From positions 1 through 29,143 of the IMG/VR virus record IMGVR_UViG_3300023172_001929: 29,143 nt of DNA; one strand, written 5' to 3'. How positions within the stretch are numbered: position 1 is the stretch's first letter; the number at the start of each line of letters is the position of its first letter. The notes beneath the pieces were generated by a model. That model had not been told where the DNA came from. It did not search any database and worked only from the letters and a program-made list of their open reading frames with translations. Positions 18,517 to 29,143 of the stretch are shown here, piece after piece. A program made the position numbers and the translations under genes. Source of the DNA: a virus.

Positions 18517-19155
18517 ATGCGTGATCTATTGGACAAATTAAAATTATACGAAGATGTCGACACATATCAAGGTGAAGTTGACGGCTTTGAATTCACCGGA
18601 GATGATGGCGAAACCGGCGAAGGCACACTTTATTATACAGCAGTTAACGGAAAAGTTGACCCTAAATCACTAAGAGGTGAAGCAGAGGGCGATGGTAACA
18701 ATAAACTAGATGATGAACTAGCAACAGCAGTTGTCCAGCCAGGAGCATTAGATCACGAATATGCAATGGATGCAGCACAAGAAGACTACGAAGAAGCTGT
18801 AAGAAGAATGATGTCAAAGTTTGAAGAAATCAACGATGAACAAACATTTGAAGGTGAAGAGTTTTATAACTATTACGGTTTCCTACCATGGCACGAAGAT
18901 GTACCTGTAGAAGAAGCAGAATATAGAGGTCGTAAAGTTCCACTAGGCAAACCTATGCAAGGTGATGTCAAGAAGTTTAAAGTATACGTTAGAGATCCGA
19001 AAACAAAAAATATTAAGAAAGTAAACTTTGGTGATCCTAATATGAGAATTAAAAAATCTAATCCGGCACGTAGAAAGTCATTTAGAGCTAGACATAATTG
19101 TTCAAACCCAGGTCCGAGAACAAAAGCTCGTTACTGGTCATGCAGGAAGTGGTAA
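18517..19155 (+). CDS. Modular phage protein with basic two-Cys C-terminal module
   Basis: A 212-residue protein. The N-terminus MRDLLDKLKLYED could be a short targeting segment (see the cluster finding). The middle is very acidic (residues 13-150). The last 65 residues switch to basic: KKFKVYVRDPKTKNIKKVNF, then RRKSFRARHNCSNPGP and a final YWSCRKW. I have seen this C-terminal module at the end of otherwise unrelated proteins of T4-like marine phages; its role is not known to me. The sharp acidic/basic split is unusual. First gene after two late promoter boxes; next gene starts one base after its stop. Confidence 0.75.
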   Translation: MRDLLDKLKLYEDVDTYQGEVDGFEFTGDDGETGEGTLYYTAVNGKVDPKSLRGEAEGDGNNKLDDELATAVVQPGALDHEYAMDAAQEDYEEAVRRMMSKFEEINDEQTFEGEEFYNYYGFLPWHEDVPVEEAEYRGRKVPLGKPMQGDVKKFKVYVRDPKTKNIKKVNFGDPNMRIKKSNPARRKSFRARHNCSNPGPRTKARYWSCRKW

Positions 19156-19491
19156 ATGAAACTCAACGAATTATTCTCACCTATAGGCGCACCTGACGAT
19201 AACGAAGATATCAATTGGGTTGAAGATTTAAAAATCTTCATCGACAATGATAACCAAGTCCTTAGTAATGTAATGTTTCCGGCCATAAAGAAACATAAAA
19301 ATTATCCAGGACACCCTGATGCTTATAAAATTTATATCAAGCCTGTCAATGCTTGTAAAGAAATGTACTGCAATAAATTTCAAGTAGATGACGCTGATCA
19401 AAAGTTTCCAAAAGAACAAATAATTGCTTTAGCGAGACGTATTGCCTCAGAGCAAGATAGTTTTATTAAACGAGGCGATTATGAAGATTAG
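19156..19491 (+). CDS. Small protein with MKLNELF N-terminus, unknown function
   Basis: A 111-residue protein directly adjoining its neighbours (0-base gap before, 11-base overlap after). The start MKLNELFSPIGAPDDNEDIN is of the type shared with genes at 19481 and 22220. The rest is a compact helical-looking domain with two nearby cysteines (NACKEMYCNKFQVDD) and a segment FPKEQIIALARRIASEQDSF. No catalytic motif is recognisable. Likely a late protein; possibly packaged in the head if the N-terminus is a targeting tag. Confidence 0.72.
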   Translation: MKLNELFSPIGAPDDNEDINWVEDLKIFIDNDNQVLSNVMFPAIKKHKNYPGHPDAYKIYIKPVNACKEMYCNKFQVDDADQKFPKEQIIALARRIASEQDSFIKRGDYED

Positions 19492-20113
19492 AGAACTCTT
19501 CGAAGCACAAGATAGACACGTTACATTTTGTTTCGGAAGATTCAATCCCCCTACACTTGGCCATAAAAAAGTTTTTGATGCAATGGCTGACCAAGGTGGA
19601 GAAATGAAAATTTTTACAAGTGTTAGCCAAGACGGGAAAAAGAATCCGTTAGACTATGACACAAAAATTGACTTTATTAGAAAGATACATCCTAACTACG
19701 CTGATCAAATAGAAGATAACAAAAATCTAAACACCATTGACAAAGTATGTGAGTACTTAAATGATCAAGGATACAATCACATCACATTTGTTGCAGGTAG
19801 TGATAGATTAGATTCTATGAGAAATCTTATTAAAGATTACAATGGTAAGACTGAAGGTAAAAGAGGACCTGTTGCACATCCTTTTAAATTTGAAACAATG
19901 GAATTTGTTTCAAGTGGTGAAAGAGAAGATGGCGCAGAAGGTGTAGAAGGAATTAGCGGAACACAAGCACGTGAAGATGCAGCAAACAACGACTTAAAAA
20001 GTTTTGTAAAACATACAGGTGCAGGTGAACACGCAGACGAACTTTTTCTAGCAGTTAGAAAAGGAATGGGACTTCAAGATGAAAAAACAGATGCCGAAGA
20101 CGATCAAGAGTAG
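19481..20113 (+). CDS. HxGH-superfamily nucleotidyltransferase (NMN adenylyltransferase-like)
   Basis: A 210-residue protein. ATG 19481 (SD GAGG) was chosen; a longer in-frame start at 19442 lies deep in the upstream gene. After the short start MKIRELFEAQ comes the superfamily signature CFGRFNPPTLGHKKVFDAM (TLGH at 25-28), VAGSDR (105-109) and ISGTQAR (158-164, the ISTTxxR equivalent). These motifs place it with nucleotidylyl transferases such as NadM/NadD-type NMN adenylyltransferases or phage FAD-synthetase-like proteins. The reaction is transfer of a nucleotidyl group from ATP or CTP to a phosphate-bearing substrate; which one cannot be told. It ends with an acidic tail. Confidence 0.84.
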   Translation: MKIRELFEAQDRHVTFCFGRFNPPTLGHKKVFDAMADQGGEMKIFTSVSQDGKKNPLDYDTKIDFIRKIHPNYADQIEDNKNLNTIDKVCEYLNDQGYNHITFVAGSDRLDSMRNLIKDYNGKTEGKRGPVAHPFKFETMEFVSSGEREDGAEGVEGISGTQAREDAANNDLKSFVKHTGAGEHADELFLAVRKGMGLQDEKTDAEDDQE

Positions 20114-21146
20114 AGACCCTAGTTGGAAAACTATGCAAGACATTCGTCAGAGTGGTGCTATGGGTGCTCATCGAGATAAGAAGAAAGAACAAAAATACGG
20201 ATACGAAAAACATAAGGGGAAAACAATGGACGAATCCATCTATACACATCCAGCCGGTAGTGAACTATCAAGAATCGGTAGAATCTTGATGGACAAAGCA
20301 ATTACAACCAAAGACGATGCATTATCAAATGTAATGTCAAGAGTAGGTAGTGAACTTACTATGTACGGTGAAGCAGGAGGTGCATCTTCGATAGAAGAGC
20401 TTGAAAAGAAAACTAAACTACCGAAAGAAAAAATTCTAAAACTAATGAAATGGGCTACGCAACAAAAAGACGATACCCTATCAAAAGTAAAAGATCCTGA
20501 GCCATCAAAAGATGATGACGATGAAAAAGAAGAGTCAATTGCAACCGAGACAACCCCTATCGGTCATGTAGATGATGAACGTAATATGATTCGTAAAGAA
20601 CTTTATCAAATGGCTACCTATGCTAAAGAGATGTTTACAATGTTAGAAAAATTACCTGCGGACAGTGATTTCCCCCACTGGTGGCAGGCTAAGGTTGTTA
20701 ACAGTCTTTCAATGATTAGCAAAGCTAAACACTATCTTGAAAACGAAATCAATGTTCCAGATGTTGATGGAGACAGAACAGAAGAATCGCATGATAACAT
20801 GGGATTTTCTGACAAAGAAATTAAAATGGCTTACGGTGTTTTAAACGATCCAAGATACAAAGGTGGCAATATGACAGGTGCTGTTGCTACTATCGAAAAA
20901 ATTGCTAAGGGCTTATCAAAACATCCAGGTGTTCAAAAAGCACTACAAAGAACAAACGAATCAGTATGTTCTGAATGCGGCAAAGTTCGCTTTACATCAC
21001 TACCAGAAGAAATGCAATCTCAATACGAAAATGTAAATGAAGAAAAGCAAAAAGGTGTTGATGGCAAAGTATGCTGGAAAGGCTACAAGCGCATGGGCAC
21101 CAAGATGAAAGGTGGCAAACGAGTAGACAACTGTGTTAAGATGTAA
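20079..21146 (+). CDS. Modular phage protein with CWKGY-type C-terminal module
   Basis: A 355-residue protein if started at ATG 20079 (35-base overlap with the previous gene). An in-frame ATG at 20226 has a better SD (AGGGGA) and would remove 49 basic residues (DPSWKTMQDIRQSGAMGAHR part), but those residues look like genuine protein, so I keep the longer form. The central part is helical with an acidic linker (KDDDDEKEES) and a His/Trp-rich segment (DSDFPHWWQAKVVNSLSM). Near the end are CSECG and, in the last 30 residues, GKVCWKGYKRMGTKMKGGKR followed by VDNC. I know this closing module from short phage proteins but not its role. Confidence 0.75.
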   Translation: MKKQMPKTIKSRDPSWKTMQDIRQSGAMGAHRDKKKEQKYGYEKHKGKTMDESIYTHPAGSELSRIGRILMDKAITTKDDALSNVMSRVGSELTMYGEAGGASSIEELEKKTKLPKEKILKLMKWATQQKDDTLSKVKDPEPSKDDDDEKEESIATETTPIGHVDDERNMIRKELYQMATYAKEMFTMLEKLPADSDFPHWWQAKVVNSLSMISKAKHYLENEINVPDVDGDRTEESHDNMGFSDKEIKMAYGVLNDPRYKGGNMTGAVATIEKIAKGLSKHPGVQKALQRTNESVCSECGKVRFTSLPEEMQSQYENVNEEKQKGVDGKVCWKGYKRMGTKMKGGKRVDNCVKM

Positions 21147-21346
21147 TGGAGATCGAAGAGCTAAAAAGACTTGCGGGTATCTATGAGCGTCACGGCTGGA
21201 AAGCATATGACGGACCCAATCTATCGATCACAGGCACAGAAAAACAATACCTAGAAAAGAAGCACAACATACAACCAGGAACACCAGAATGGTTTAAGTT
21301 GTGGTTCTCATTACCAAAACTAACAGGCGAGAAACCAATAGGATGA
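21146..21346 (+). CDS. Small phage protein (MEIEELKRLAGI type), unknown function
   Basis: A 66-residue protein whose ATG shares one base with the upstream stop (TAATG). It starts MEIEELKRLAGIYERHGW and ends with QPGTPEWFKLWFSLPKLTG, a Trp/Phe-rich stretch that I recall from several marine T4-like phages. The middle is basic/polar. No enzyme motif. It overlaps the HAD gene by ATGA and so is in the same translation unit. An IxE context lies at residues 12-14 (IYE), a possible prohead protease cut site. Confidence 0.72.
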   Translation: MEIEELKRLAGIYERHGWKAYDGPNLSITGTEKQYLEKKHNIQPGTPEWFKLWFSLPKLTGEKPIG

Positions 21347-22215
21347 GATTCTTTGAATTCCAAAACGAAGAAGCTGCTGGAGTTGGCATTGTAACAAAAC
21401 AAAATGCTACTAAAGATGTTCCTGTTGGTGGCGAATACGCAAACGTTAAAAAATTATTTCCTAAGAAAAAGAAAACCTATGAAGATATGTTCCAAGGACT
21501 TAATCCTAAATCTGATATCTATGTGGATATGGATGGTGTTCTTGCAGACTTCTTTGGAGAATGGAAGAAACTAGTAGGCAAAGATTGGCGCCAACTAGAC
21601 AAAGACGAACTAGAACCAGCACTTAAAAAAATTAGAGATGCTGATGATTTTTGGTTAAACATACCTTTAACCTCGAACGCAAAAAATTTGTTATCTATTA
21701 TTAAAAAAGTAAAGGGTAACTATAAAATTCTAAGTTCACCACTAGCAAACGATCCTAAATCAGAACCACACAAGCGCGAGTGGATTGAAAAGAATCTAGA
21801 CTTCTTCCCGCCAAGCGAAGTCATCATAACTAAGGATAAGGCGAAGTATGCGACAAACCCCGACGGCACACCTAATATCCTTATTGACGATTATGGTGTA
21901 AACATATCAGCGTGGGAAAGTGCCGGAGGCATAGGGTTTAAACACAAGGATCACAAGTTTGAAAGAACTGCTAAAAAACTTAAAGCAGAAATAGAAGAAA
22001 GTTTCCAACATTTATTAAGAGAACATATTGAAGAAAACTTTGCTGACGGTAAAGTAAAAGGCAAAAGCAGACCAGGGCGTGTAAAACGTGCTGGTGCTAG
22101 TTGTAATGGTAGTGTAACAAGTTTACGTAAAAAGGCTAAAAATGCAAGTGGCGAACGTGCAAAAATGTACCACTGGTGTGCTAATATGAAGGGCGGCCGT
22201 AAAAAAGGTAAATAG
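21343..22215 (+). CDS. HAD-family 5'-nucleotidase-like enzyme with basic Cys C-terminal module
   Basis: A 290-residue protein; ATG 21343 overlaps the upstream stop as ATGA. After MRFFEFQNEEAAG and a Lys-rich stretch (VKKLFPKKKKTYEDM), residues 58-200 form a HAD domain: motif I YVDMDGVLADF with D62 and D64, motif II KILSSPL (S131/S132), Lys residues in ITKDKAKYA, and motif IV NILIDDYG (D182/D183). This is the deoxyribonucleotidase-type HAD group, so dephosphorylation of a 5'-nucleotide is likely. The C-terminus is a separate basic module (KGKSRPGRVKRAGASCNGSV and MYHWCANMKGG), known to me at the ends of other phage proteins. The fusion of enzyme and tail module is noteworthy. Confidence 0.84.
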   Translation: MRFFEFQNEEAAGVGIVTKQNATKDVPVGGEYANVKKLFPKKKKTYEDMFQGLNPKSDIYVDMDGVLADFFGEWKKLVGKDWRQLDKDELEPALKKIRDADDFWLNIPLTSNAKNLLSIIKKVKGNYKILSSPLANDPKSEPHKREWIEKNLDFFPPSEVIITKDKAKYATNPDGTPNILIDDYGVNISAWESAGGIGFKHKDHKFERTAKKLKAEIEESFQHLLREHIEENFADGKVKGKSRPGRVKRAGASCNGSVTSLRKKAKNASGERAKMYHWCANMKGGRKKGK

Positions 22216-22219
22216 TACT

Positions 22220-22495
22220 ATGAGATTGAATGAATTATTTAACGATAAAAAAGAATATATAGCAAACGAAACTGCTACAGCAGGTGCTACAGTCTCGGGT
22301 AATATTGCTAGTGTACCTAATCCACACATTTCTCCAGGAAATGCAAGAGGTAAAAAGAGCTATATAGGTAACCCTAAAGGGGGTATTTCTGGTACAAAAG
22401 CACCACCTCAACCAAAACCCAAAATGCAAAAACCAACAGATAATGCACTAGATACAAAAGGAAGCATTTTTGGAACTAACCTAGTGAAAAGATAA
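22220..22495 (+). CDS. Small low-complexity protein with MRLNELF N-terminus
   Basis: A 91-residue protein. MRLNELFNDKKEY closely resembles the starts of the proteins at 19156 and 19481. The remainder is Gly, Pro, Ala, Ser and Lys rich with no core (ATAGATVSGNIASVPNPHIS; GISGTKAPPQPKPKMQKP), so it is probably disordered. The TAGATVSGNIASVPNP piece is of a type I have seen in T4-like phage proteins. A disordered, basic, tagged protein would suit a head-internal protein. Function unknown. Confidence 0.68.
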   Translation: MRLNELFNDKKEYIANETATAGATVSGNIASVPNPHISPGNARGKKSYIGNPKGGISGTKAPPQPKPKMQKPTDNALDTKGSIFGTNLVKR

Positions 22496-22498
22496 ATA
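22491..22498 (+). promoter_or_regulatory. Candidate T4-type late promoter box (GATAAATA)
   Basis: GATAAATA, identical to the box at 2998, overlaps the stop of the preceding gene. SD AGGGGA (22505-22510) and ATG 22518 follow, and the predicted start of transcription near 22504 leaves a short leader. Confidence 0.55.
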
Positions 22499-22517
22499 GC
22501 ATATAGGGGATAAAAAT

Positions 22518-23540
22518 ATGGACTTTAGAAAAATAAACAAAATTTTAAAAGATATTGATCCAACAACACCGGATCAAGATCTACATAATACATCAATGTT
22601 GGCTGAATCTTTAGGCATCGATGTTGGTGTTGAAAAAGAACAACTAACAGAAAAAGCAGTTTCTAAAGCCCAACAAAAGTTAATGGGTCAAGCATATGCA
22701 CTCAAGAAGGGAGATATGAAAGCTAAAGATGCATCAAAAGAAGTTAAGAAACTTGCTAAAGAAATGAGCAAGTCAGATCTAAAAGACTTTGCATCTACCA
22801 AGCACAAAGGTAAACCAGAACACGTTAAAAAAGAATCTGTAAAAGAAAATTTAACTCCCCAAGAAGCAGATCAAAAACTAACTGACAAACAAGCAAAACA
22901 AAAAGCTCTACAAGATATTCAAATGGATCCTAACACTCACAAAGATCCACAACTCAAAAAAGAATTAGCAAGACGTAAAGCAGAAGTTGATGCTATGGAA
23001 GAATCAGTTAAATTAGTTGACGACTTCGGCGAAGTGTTTGAAGCACAATCTGCAAAACAAAAAGCAGCCTTTAAGAAAATGCTAGATGCTAAGAAAGGCA
23101 AAAAATCTGACGATAAAGAAGTTGACGAAGCAGCAAAGCCAGACTTCCTTGACGTGGATAAAGATGGGGACAAGAAAGAGCCTATGAAAAAAGCTCTCAA
23201 GGACAAGAAGAAAAAACAAGTAAAAGAATCCGCTGACCCATTGAAGTTCATCGAAATGATGAAGATGGTTCGTGAAAGCGGAGGTCAACAAGCAATTGAT
23301 CCTATGGACGATGTATTATGGTCATGGGCAAACAGAGTTGCTAAATCCAAAGTACAAGAATCAAACAAACAAGAAATTTTCGCAGCAATGGTATACGAAA
23401 GAAATGGTGGACGTTTTGAAATGTATGATGTTGTTGAAAAAGGCCTAAACGAAGGCAAAGACTGTAACTGCGGTCCAGACTGTGCTTGTAAAGGCAACTG
23501 TGGTTCAAACTGTAACTGCGGTCCAAACTGCGACAAATAA
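22518..23540 (+). CDS. Modular protein: DUF3008-like domain, acidic DxDxDG loop, Cys-rich tail
   Basis: A 340-residue, Lys/Glu/Asp-rich protein built from modules. Residues about 49-100 resemble DUF3008 (SKAQQKLMGQAYALKKGD and DLKDFASTKHKGKPEHV). Around residues 206-225 is PDFLDVDKDGDKKEPMKKAL, whose DVDKDGD resembles the first half of a calcium-binding EF-hand loop. Residues 240-312 are a helical segment with two Trp (DDVLWSWANRVAKSK). The last 26 residues hold eight cysteines in CxC/CxxxC spacing (for example CNCGPDCACKGNC), a metallothionein-like tail. Own late promoter box; a strong terminator follows. The combination suggests an abundant, perhaps head-internal, protein. No enzyme activity is evident. 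Confidence 0.78.
   Translation: MDFRKINKILKDIDPTTPDQDLHNTSMLAESLGIDVGVEKEQLTEKAVSKAQQKLMGQAYALKKGDMKAKDASKEVKKLAKEMSKSDLKDFASTKHKGKPEHVKKESVKENLTPQEADQKLTDKQAKQKALQDIQMDPNTHKDPQLKKELARRKAEVDAMEESVKLVDDFGEVFEAQSAKQKAAFKKMLDAKKGKKSDDKEVDEAAKPDFLDVDKDGDKKEPMKKALKDKKKKQVKESADPLKFIEMMKMVRESGGQQAIDPMDDVLWSWANRVAKSKVQESNKQEIFAAMVYERNGGRFEMYDVVEKGLNEGKDCNCGPDCACKGNCGSNCNCGPNCDK
23461..23530 (+). repeat. 22-base direct repeat encoding CNCGP motif
   Basis: The 22-base units at 23461-23482 and 23509-23530 differ at one base and are 48 bases apart. They encode the two NCNCGP-type halves of the cysteine-rich tail, so the tail seems to have grown by in-frame duplication. Confidence 0.6.
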
Positions 23541-28672: not shown

Positions 28673-28675
28673 ATA
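28669..28675 (+). promoter_or_regulatory. Possible late-type box CTAAATA before the transglycosylase gene
   Basis: CTAAATA overlaps the gp45 stop codon and lies 6 bases before ATG 28681. The core is right but the position would make a nearly leaderless message, and TAA stops followed by AT-rich sequence produce this string by chance, so I rate it low. Confidence 0.25.
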
Positions 28676-28680
28676 AAGTT

Positions 28681-29143
28681 ATGAAAAAACCAGTCAACCT
28701 TACACCACTACAAAAAGACTACGCAGTGTATTTGCCTGCGATTAGTTGTTTCTTTTCCACTTACATATCAAAGCAGAGATATGAGGAGTTTATCGCGAAG
28801 GATAGAGTTCCGGCAGGCTTTGATAGAGGTATCGAAGGTATGAACTTCCTTAACGAGGAAGAAGGATACTTTACATACAAGTATGGTTTGTATTCAGCAG
28901 GTCATGCACAATTGAACTTGGATAAAACTATTAAACAGGATAGTATGATTCAAGAACGTGATCGAAGCAAAACAATGATACTTGGTGATAGTGGTGGTTA
29001 TCAGGTAGGTAAAGGTGTTCTTAAATTTGACTGGTTAAACTTCGAAGGTACGGCTGCTAATAAAGTACGTGATGATATTTTAAATTGGTTAGAACTAACT
29101 GCTGATTGGTCAATGTTACTTGACGTTCCGACTTGGGCAGCTG
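28681..29143 (+). CDS. TGT-superfamily transglycosylase, DpdA-like (3' end outside window)
   Basis: The frame is open from ATG 28681 to the end of the window (154 codons visible). The segment KTMILGDSGGYQVGKG contains the DSGG(F/Y)Q signature of queuine tRNA-ribosyltransferases (here D103 matches the active-site Asp102 of the bacterial enzyme), and ADWSMLLDVP corresponds to the second conserved Asp strand. Phage members of this superfamily are often DpdA, which inserts 7-deazaguanine bases into DNA; the sequence before the motif is unlike cellular TGT, favouring DpdA, but this needs the missing C-terminus. Placement beside gp43/gp45 suits DNA modification. No SD is visible; the gene follows gp45 by 8 bases. 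Confidence 0.72.
   Translation, partial: MKKPVNLTPLQKDYAVYLPAISCFFSTYISKQRYEEFIAKDRVPAGFDRGIEGMNFLNEEEGYFTYKYGLYSAGHAQLNLDKTIKQDSMIQERDRSKTMILGDSGGYQVGKGVLKFDWLNFEGTAANKVRDDILNWLELTADWSMLLDVPTWAA

Follow-up and report, generated by a model that had tools for sequence, protein, structure and literature searches.

Targeting to the capsid by short leaders is known in detail for bacteriophage T4, where few natural cargo proteins are involved. The T4 protease gp21 cleaves after L/I-x-E (PMC9026906), and its substrates include gp24 and the internal proteins, with propeptides of 10-20 residues (PMC5694885). Alt is cut at ITE-6/LF (a slash marks here a cleavage site, published or predicted) and also at LTE-619, 63 residues from its C-terminus (PMC5694885). 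In phiKZ and SPN3US, inner-head proteins are likewise cut by a prohead protease after Glu motifs (PMC5694885); their propeptides are mostly longer than 100 residues, in contrast with the short leaders considered below. The present analysis deals with a cluster of eight genes, all on the + strand, at positions 18517-23540 of a stretch of 29,143 nucleotides (IMG/VR virus record IMGVR_UViG_3300023172_001929, positions 1 to 29,143), the whole of which is called the window. This 29-kb fragment, of 36% GC, comes from a T4-like aquatic phage. Judging from sequence, we consider it probable (about 0.8) that the cluster encodes modular phage-head cargo, with an N-terminal tag for entry and cuts by a gp21-type protease at the leaders and at domain borders.

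Leaders of the cluster and their T4 counterparts

The six N-termini to which an earlier note on this DNA had drawn attention are all found: MRDLLDKLKLYE at 18517, MKLNELF at 19156, MKIRELFEAQ at 19481, MEIEELKRLAGIYE at 21146, MRFFEF at 21343 and MRLNELF at 22220. Two of these starts are internal ATG codons of longer open reading frames (ORFs), that of MKIRELFEAQ in the 19442 ORF, with GAGG upstream, and that of MRFFEF in the 21301 ORF. Each of the six proteins has a short propeptide-like leader of about 6-19 residues. The ELF-type start described by the note as shared by neighbouring proteins, written here M[KR][LI]x[ED]LF, opens three of the 43 window genes, all within 19156-22220. When residues 2-31 of the window N-termini were permuted in 20,000 trials, 0.00045 such starts were expected per window and three were never reached. 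Of 840 proteins from Melnitz, HTVC008M, S-CREM2 (part) and T4, none starts with this pattern. An early (L/I)xE, also pointed out by the note, lies within residues 2-15 in 5/8 cluster genes versus 3/35 other window genes (Fisher p = 0.0026).

The predicted cleavage sites at the ends of the leaders can be placed as follows. In the 212-aa protein, the leader MRDLLDKLKLYE (18517-18552) would be cut at LYE-12/D, and relatives keep an LxE there (LDE/G, LLE/G). The 111-aa protein at 19156-19491, whose leader is conserved in all relatives, has LNE-5/LF. In the leader MKIRELFE of the nucleotidyltransferase (19481-19504), there are two candidate cuts, IRE-5/LF and LFE-8/AQ. The leader-like N-terminus MEIEELKRLAGIYE of a 66-aa protein (21146-21187) has a predicted cut at IYE-14/R, with IYE in relatives and ITE in G006. 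The leader MRFFEFQNE of the HAD protein (21343-21369) is clear only via a homologue, with MRAHQFVDE/EAAGVG in the relative L220 facing MRFFEFQNE/EAAGVG in the window, and its site is predicted by homology only. Finally, at 22220-22270, the leader MRLNELFNDKKEYIANE again offers LNE-5, and the conserved body TATAGATVSGNIAS begins right after Glu17; the G006 homologue reads MRIHELLE/TATTGATSAGNIATG. MKLNE/LF and MRLNE/LF share the geometry of the Alt site, and MKIRELFE/A has the same site plus the second one. For Alt-like leaders, cleavage after LFDE was set aside, the published Alt site being ITE-6/LF, and for this reason the cut directly before LF is the likelier one for the 19156 and 22220 proteins.

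Among the 267-272 ORFs of T4, a pattern for ELF-type leaders picks only gp24 (MAKINELLRE/S) and Alt (MELITELFDE), and a pattern of the MKTYQEFIAE type finds nothing beyond two internal-protein genes and gp61.1. The INELLRE of the vertex protein gp24 is nearly the LNELF(x)E of the window, although gp24 is a shell protein and not cargo. The internal proteins carry the capsid-targeting sequence MKTYQEFIAE/A, a 9-10-residue leader ending in (L/I)xE, and the leaders of S-CREM2, C48C1 and Melnitz are equally spaced. The mature bodies are however unrelated, and the window leaders are of the gp24/Alt-like ELF type. Alt, an injected ADP-ribosyltransferase, offers both a resemblance to the ELF leader and the same layout of leader, enzyme and tail, whereas in the window the enzyme is in one case a nucleotidyltransferase and in the other a HAD nucleotidase, and the tails are exchangeable modules that recur on many bodies. 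PHROG and Pfam scans of the cluster bodies give families other than T4 IPI-III and Alt, or no family.

The T4 protein gp61.1 (NC_000866 18966-19130, L309; 54 aa, hypothetical) opens with MKTFKEFIKE/D, a leader of the internal-protein type. Its TTSGAVV stretch is reminiscent of the window 22220 protein, and it adjoins the primase gene 61, which is also the position of the putative cargo cluster in Melnitz and HTVC008M.

Leaders and domain borders in relatives

By homologues of the cluster, the nearest complete records are Phage C48C1, Methylophilales phage Melnitz and Pelagibacter phage HTVC008M, all classed under Kyanoviridae; C48C1 is the closest complete genome and holds a syntenic cluster. 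A motif search on relatives, of the kind the earlier note had envisaged, finds the leader on many unrelated bodies, mostly in syntenic clusters. Close relatives keep the leaders of the cluster (MKLNELFSPIGAP, MKIRELFEADTDKH, MRDLLDKLxLLE/G and MEIEELKRLAGIYE/R), and other bodies also stand behind leaders there: MKLNELFSE/AYTPTKDKADY, MKLSELFAE/DTRTSITKD, MRIHELLE/TATTGAT, MLLRELFE/G, MRINDILTE/S and MRISDLIE/D. The C48C1 cluster shows five leaders of the T4-internal-protein type (regex A) at called starts, versus 0.25 expected genome-wide. Its leaders are MLDFKNFITE/Q, MLSFKQFVSE/V, IKNFSQYLLE/E (cytidylyltransferase), MITFKKYLEE/K and MKKFKQYIDE/G (YWSC domain), and those of Melnitz are MQGFKTFLSE/A, MTQKFSQFITE/E and MKKFSEIIE/A. 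At 80 loci collected by the NFADGK tail (see below), MRAKEFITE, MRAQEFVTE, MKVYEILSE and MKIRDIITE occur on many bodies. With a relaxed pattern, all loci together give 261 distinct bodies, some of them surely false, in 62 single-linkage groups, 19 of which have two or more members. A Pfam search with ten leadered representatives returned few domains (nucleotidyltransferase, chitinase-like GH19, DUF6267 and a weak GNAT).

The near-complete relative G010 (138.7 kb), most of whose leaders lie at 4-8 kb or 125.8 kb, encodes both a Peptidase_S77 (PF03420, 7e-26) and a Gp23 capsid protein (PF07068, 3e-102), and C48C1 also encodes a Peptidase_S77 (PF03420, 2e-39). A search for gp21 in the first eight relative contigs found none, probably because these contigs are fragments.

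Four small domains of the cluster are fused to other proteins, some of them being also found solo behind a leader, and the join comes after a Glu. DUF3008 (22653-22826; PF11450, E = 1e-11) is solo in MRAYEIISE/KAVSKKQQ of relatives and fused in the window as ..EQLTE/KAVSKAQQ, where border contexts designate LTE-45 (22644-22652) as an internal candidate site. The 59-aa Lys/Arg/Cys tail NFADGKVKGKSRPGR..YHWCANMKGGRKKGK (22036-22212), or NFADGK tail, is solo in MRIFELVE/NFADGK, MKAHEFITE/N and MRAKEFITE/N, and follows the HAD protein of the window as ..REHIEE/NFADGK, with the candidate site IEE-231 (22027-22035) in a disordered linker. The C-terminal Cys/Lys/Arg-rich domain of the 212-aa protein (18916-19152; phrog_7595), or YWSC domain, is solo behind MKKFKQYIDE/G in C48C1; in the window, border contexts place the candidate site VEE-133 (18907-18915) before this AEYRGRKV..RKSFRARHNC..YWSCRKW domain, and the join ..VEE/AEYRGRKV corresponds to ..ELTE/AEYQGKKV in C48C1. 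The last of the four, the CWKGY tail, is joined as ..VNE/EKQKGVDGKVCWKGYKRMGT, and relatives have [VIL]xE at this border, as read by eye from the contexts.

A [LIVMF]xE stands exactly at the border in 15/15 DUF3008 contexts, all of them fused or with a leader (as [LIVMF]xE/K), 21/21 YWSC contexts (as [LIVMF]xE/A) and 52/67 upstream contexts of NFADGK; with related contexts removed, 11/11, 9/9 and 40/52 remain. At the NFADGK border, E occupies position -1 in 67/67, and one of LIVMF position -3 in 52/67 (78%), versus 26% at neighbouring positions (p = 1e-18). Leaderless, unfused DUF3008 proteins of other viruses start with MP-AVSK, and therefore the xE/K join is not part of DUF3008 as such. In two AlphaFold2 models, the predicted sites (the leader and IEE-231) are outside folded domains. 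No paper naming both DUF3008 and phage was found in the literature collection searched.

Beside these relatives, some further loci may be mentioned. A constant pairing of leader and tail was considered and rejected: 23/49 tail proteins bear the leader, which many neighbours without a tail bear as well. In the relative L168 (1454-2437), a protein opening with MKAHEFVTE/K carries a chitinase/GH19 domain and may be a head-packed lysozyme-like enzyme. Phage contigs of another kind (L071:1890-2989, L075:2459-2989 and L089:2527-2934) have runs of adjacent proteins opening with MKHIKLFEQFVxE, which may be a signal of this sort beyond the clade of the window.

Homologues in virions and competing explanations

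The presence in virions that the earlier note had anticipated has been reported for homologues: mass spectrometry identified relatives of the nucleotidyltransferase in purified particles of S-SM1 (T4-GC190; PMC3037559), S-SCSM1 (PMC9602691), S-CREM2 (gp154; PMC10665884) and S-SZBM1 (S-SZBM1_140; PMC9146016), and the S-CREM2 paper also cites S-CBWM1 for such a homologue (PMC10665884). The S-SCSM1 protein is 37.7% identical to that of the window. Neighbours were detected in virions as well, namely S-SZBM1_136, S-SZBM1_139 and S-CREM2 gp155, gp156 and gp160. These homologues of 19481-20113, several of which have leaders, are presented there as puzzling virion enzymes, and the portions available mention no targeting leader. 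Leaders are found on several non-structural virion proteins of S-CREM2: gp154 (MKNFSSFLTE/A), the kinase gp14 (MKRFDAFLTE/E), the S-adenosylmethionine (SAM) hydrolase gp6 (MKDFDSFLEE/F), gp13 (MKDLHSFLTE/Q) and gp136 (MQTFSMFFSE/D). As to whether the motif is commoner on packaged proteins, all five S-CREM2 proteins with a regex-A leader were detected in the virion, which gives p = 6e-4 (52 of 221 coding sequences detected) or 4e-5 without 24 structural proteins, in a test that was not blind, as the expression was modelled on the T4 leader and written after the S-CREM2 leaders had been seen.

The Cas9-like virion protein of S-CREM2 (L021:7704-10313) reads LRFASFMAE/A from residue 17, with a possible FMAE/A site at residue 25; a Cas9-type protein aboard a phage particle is odd in itself.

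Taken together, virion homologues, the S-CREM2 leaders and the spread of the leader over unrelated bodies support the head packing that the earlier note had proposed for this cluster. At the level of sequence, support is provided by the leaders, by their spread over unrelated bodies, by the border sites, and by the presence of an S77 protease and a gp23-type capsid protein in a near-complete relative. In the corresponding mechanism, the leaders (M[KR][LI]xELF(x)E, or MKxFxxFLxE and MRAxEFIxE in relatives) would act like the T4 capsid-targeting sequence and bring the cargo into the prohead core. A serine protease of the gp21 type would then cut after (L/I/V)xE and free the mature protein inside the head, and this mature cargo could exit together with the DNA. 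In composite cargo, where a further [LIV]xE links an enzyme to small basic or Cys-rich domains, maturation would separate the domains, as with the C-terminal 63 residues of Alt. For the window phage, we infer targeting, cleavage and injection; a role of the enzymes in early infection, such as the restoration of nicotinamide adenine dinucleotide (NAD) or nucleotide handling, is a guess.

Besides the non-blind character of the S-CREM2 test, several observations weigh against modular head cargo. The 20079 and 22518 proteins have no N-terminal leader. In the 19156 and 22220 proteins, no (L/I)xE directly follows ELF, and LNE-5/LF is the sole near-start site. Tail proteins do not bear pattern B significantly more often than the ORFs beside them. 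Head genes are absent from the 29-kb window, where gp21, gp22 and gp23 were not seen. Among the virion-detected proteins, S-SZBM1_139, S-SZBM1_136 and S-CREM2 gp155 and gp160 have no clear leader, and the S-CREM2 and S-SCSM1 authors caution that non-structural proteins may be carry-over from the caesium chloride purification. Moreover, [LIVMF]xE is short and common, with single sites throughout the cluster proteins and 14 in the 22518 protein alone, as would suit a chance resemblance in AT-rich, Lys/Glu-rich phage proteins. Chance is nevertheless already contradicted by the shuffles (0.00045 per window), the 0/840 in other phages, the conservation of the leader in all relatives, the C48C1 excess and the border-site counts, and may be regarded as negligible. 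The leader patterns were drawn up with some leaders already in view, and the border statistics and the shuffles are more independent tests than these patterns.

The adjacency of the genes and the exchange of domains among relatives would also agree with N-termini that are alike by shared ancestry or gene conversion, with no targeting role. This seems very unlikely, however: the bodies are unrelated, the leader sequence varies yet its hydrophobic-x-Glu end is kept, the leader is retained while the enzymes fall to 38% identity, and unlinked S-CREM2 genes carry it. A further objection is that the border Glu, invariant as it is (67/67, 15/15 and 21/21), could belong to the domains themselves, as a part of the fold or function of each rather than a cleavage site. 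Since the same [LIV]xE border occurs in four unrelated domains and is absent from leaderless DUF3008 proteins, since the site of the HAD model lies in a disordered linker, and since the LTE-619 cut of T4 Alt has a like arrangement (PMC5694885), this appears improbable. Another view would accept targeting to the prohead and cleavage, with proteins that serve head assembly or DNA condensation and not delivery to the host. The Lys/Arg/Cys-rich tails would suit binding to DNA or scaffold, and the many possible sites of the 22518 protein recall the T4 core proteins shredded by gp21. On the other hand, enzymes with intact active-site motifs look like injected effectors and not like scaffold, and the leader set of S-CREM2 (SAM hydrolase, kinase, cytidylyltransferase) is effector-like as well. 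A role confined to assembly is thus a real but doubtful possibility.

If the cluster is indeed modular head cargo, the same signal on many bodies across aquatic T4-like phages would explain the NMNAT-like, SAM hydrolase, kinase and Cas9-like proteins in cyanophage virions. We lean slightly towards the broader view that many of these phages carry in their heads a large and exchangeable repertoire of effectors, delimited as modules by protease sites. On this view, whatever domain stands behind the leader, or is linked by an [LIV]xE site to another cargo protein, would enter the head and be released there by cleavage; the cargo would evolve through reshuffling at the protease sites, and leaders and border sites would predict injected proteins from sequence. 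The puzzle of virion enzymes would then become a testable rule, with a sequence signature for phage-injected proteins, and, to judge from the border sites, head cargo may be produced in polyprotein form.

The two enzymes and the rest of the window

The nucleotidyltransferase and HAD nucleotidase that the earlier note had recognized in the cluster match PF01467 and PF06941. The body of the former (19505-20113; GRFNPPTLGH motif, PHROG cytidyltransferase) has the Rossmann fold, the NPPTxGH and the conserved SxxxxR motif of its family, as judged by Pfam, alignment, model and Foldseek. The Foldseek matches are NadD, NadM and PPAT with modest TM-scores, of about 0.5; the modelled fold resembles these enzymes, so that the protein may be described as NMNAT/PPAT-like. 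A leader is present in 32/39 cytidylyltransferase contexts. Among 17 homologues, the most distant at about 38% identity, 90% or more retain F7 and E8 of the leader. In the AlphaFold2 model, leader residues 1-10 precede the fold, with a predicted local distance difference test score (pLDDT) of 54. The HTVC008M cytidylyltransferase (MKTLKELLRKKVG) is missing the usual LxE end and keeps LKE/LL. For that of C48C1 (L038:1427-2770), the annotated start removes the leader and the first strand; translation probably begins with the GTG at position 63448 of the record (IKNFSQYLLE/E).

In the HAD 5'(3')-nucleotidase body (NT5C; 21370-22026), the acid residues DMDG..D and DD are invariant in 16 homologues. 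The AlphaFold2 model of this protein puts IEE-231 inside a disordered stretch (residues 220-251, pLDDT <50) that links the enzyme to a small helical tail. A sequence search for solved structures of either enzyme found none.

The two leaderless proteins of the cluster are a 355-aa protein (20079-21146), whose C-terminal tail EKQKGVDGKVCWKGYKRMGTKMKGGKRVDNCVKM follows the site VNE-321 (21033-21041), and a 340-aa protein (22518-23540), which is rich in [LIVMF]xE sites and has a C-terminus rich in Cys. Elsewhere in the window, translations resemble clamp loader, PhoH, lysozyme, DnaJ, peptide deformylase, ClpA, B-family DNA polymerase and sliding clamp. A near-identity search of the window against phage records gave no match, and a PADLOC run gave no hits. 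The Cys-rich end of the 22518 protein (23454-23537; CNCGPDCACKGNCGSNCNCGPNCDK) is metallothionein-like in look. The terminal open frame of the window (28675-29143) resembles, by eye from its translation, a queuine tRNA-ribosyltransferase-type protein (DpdA-like).

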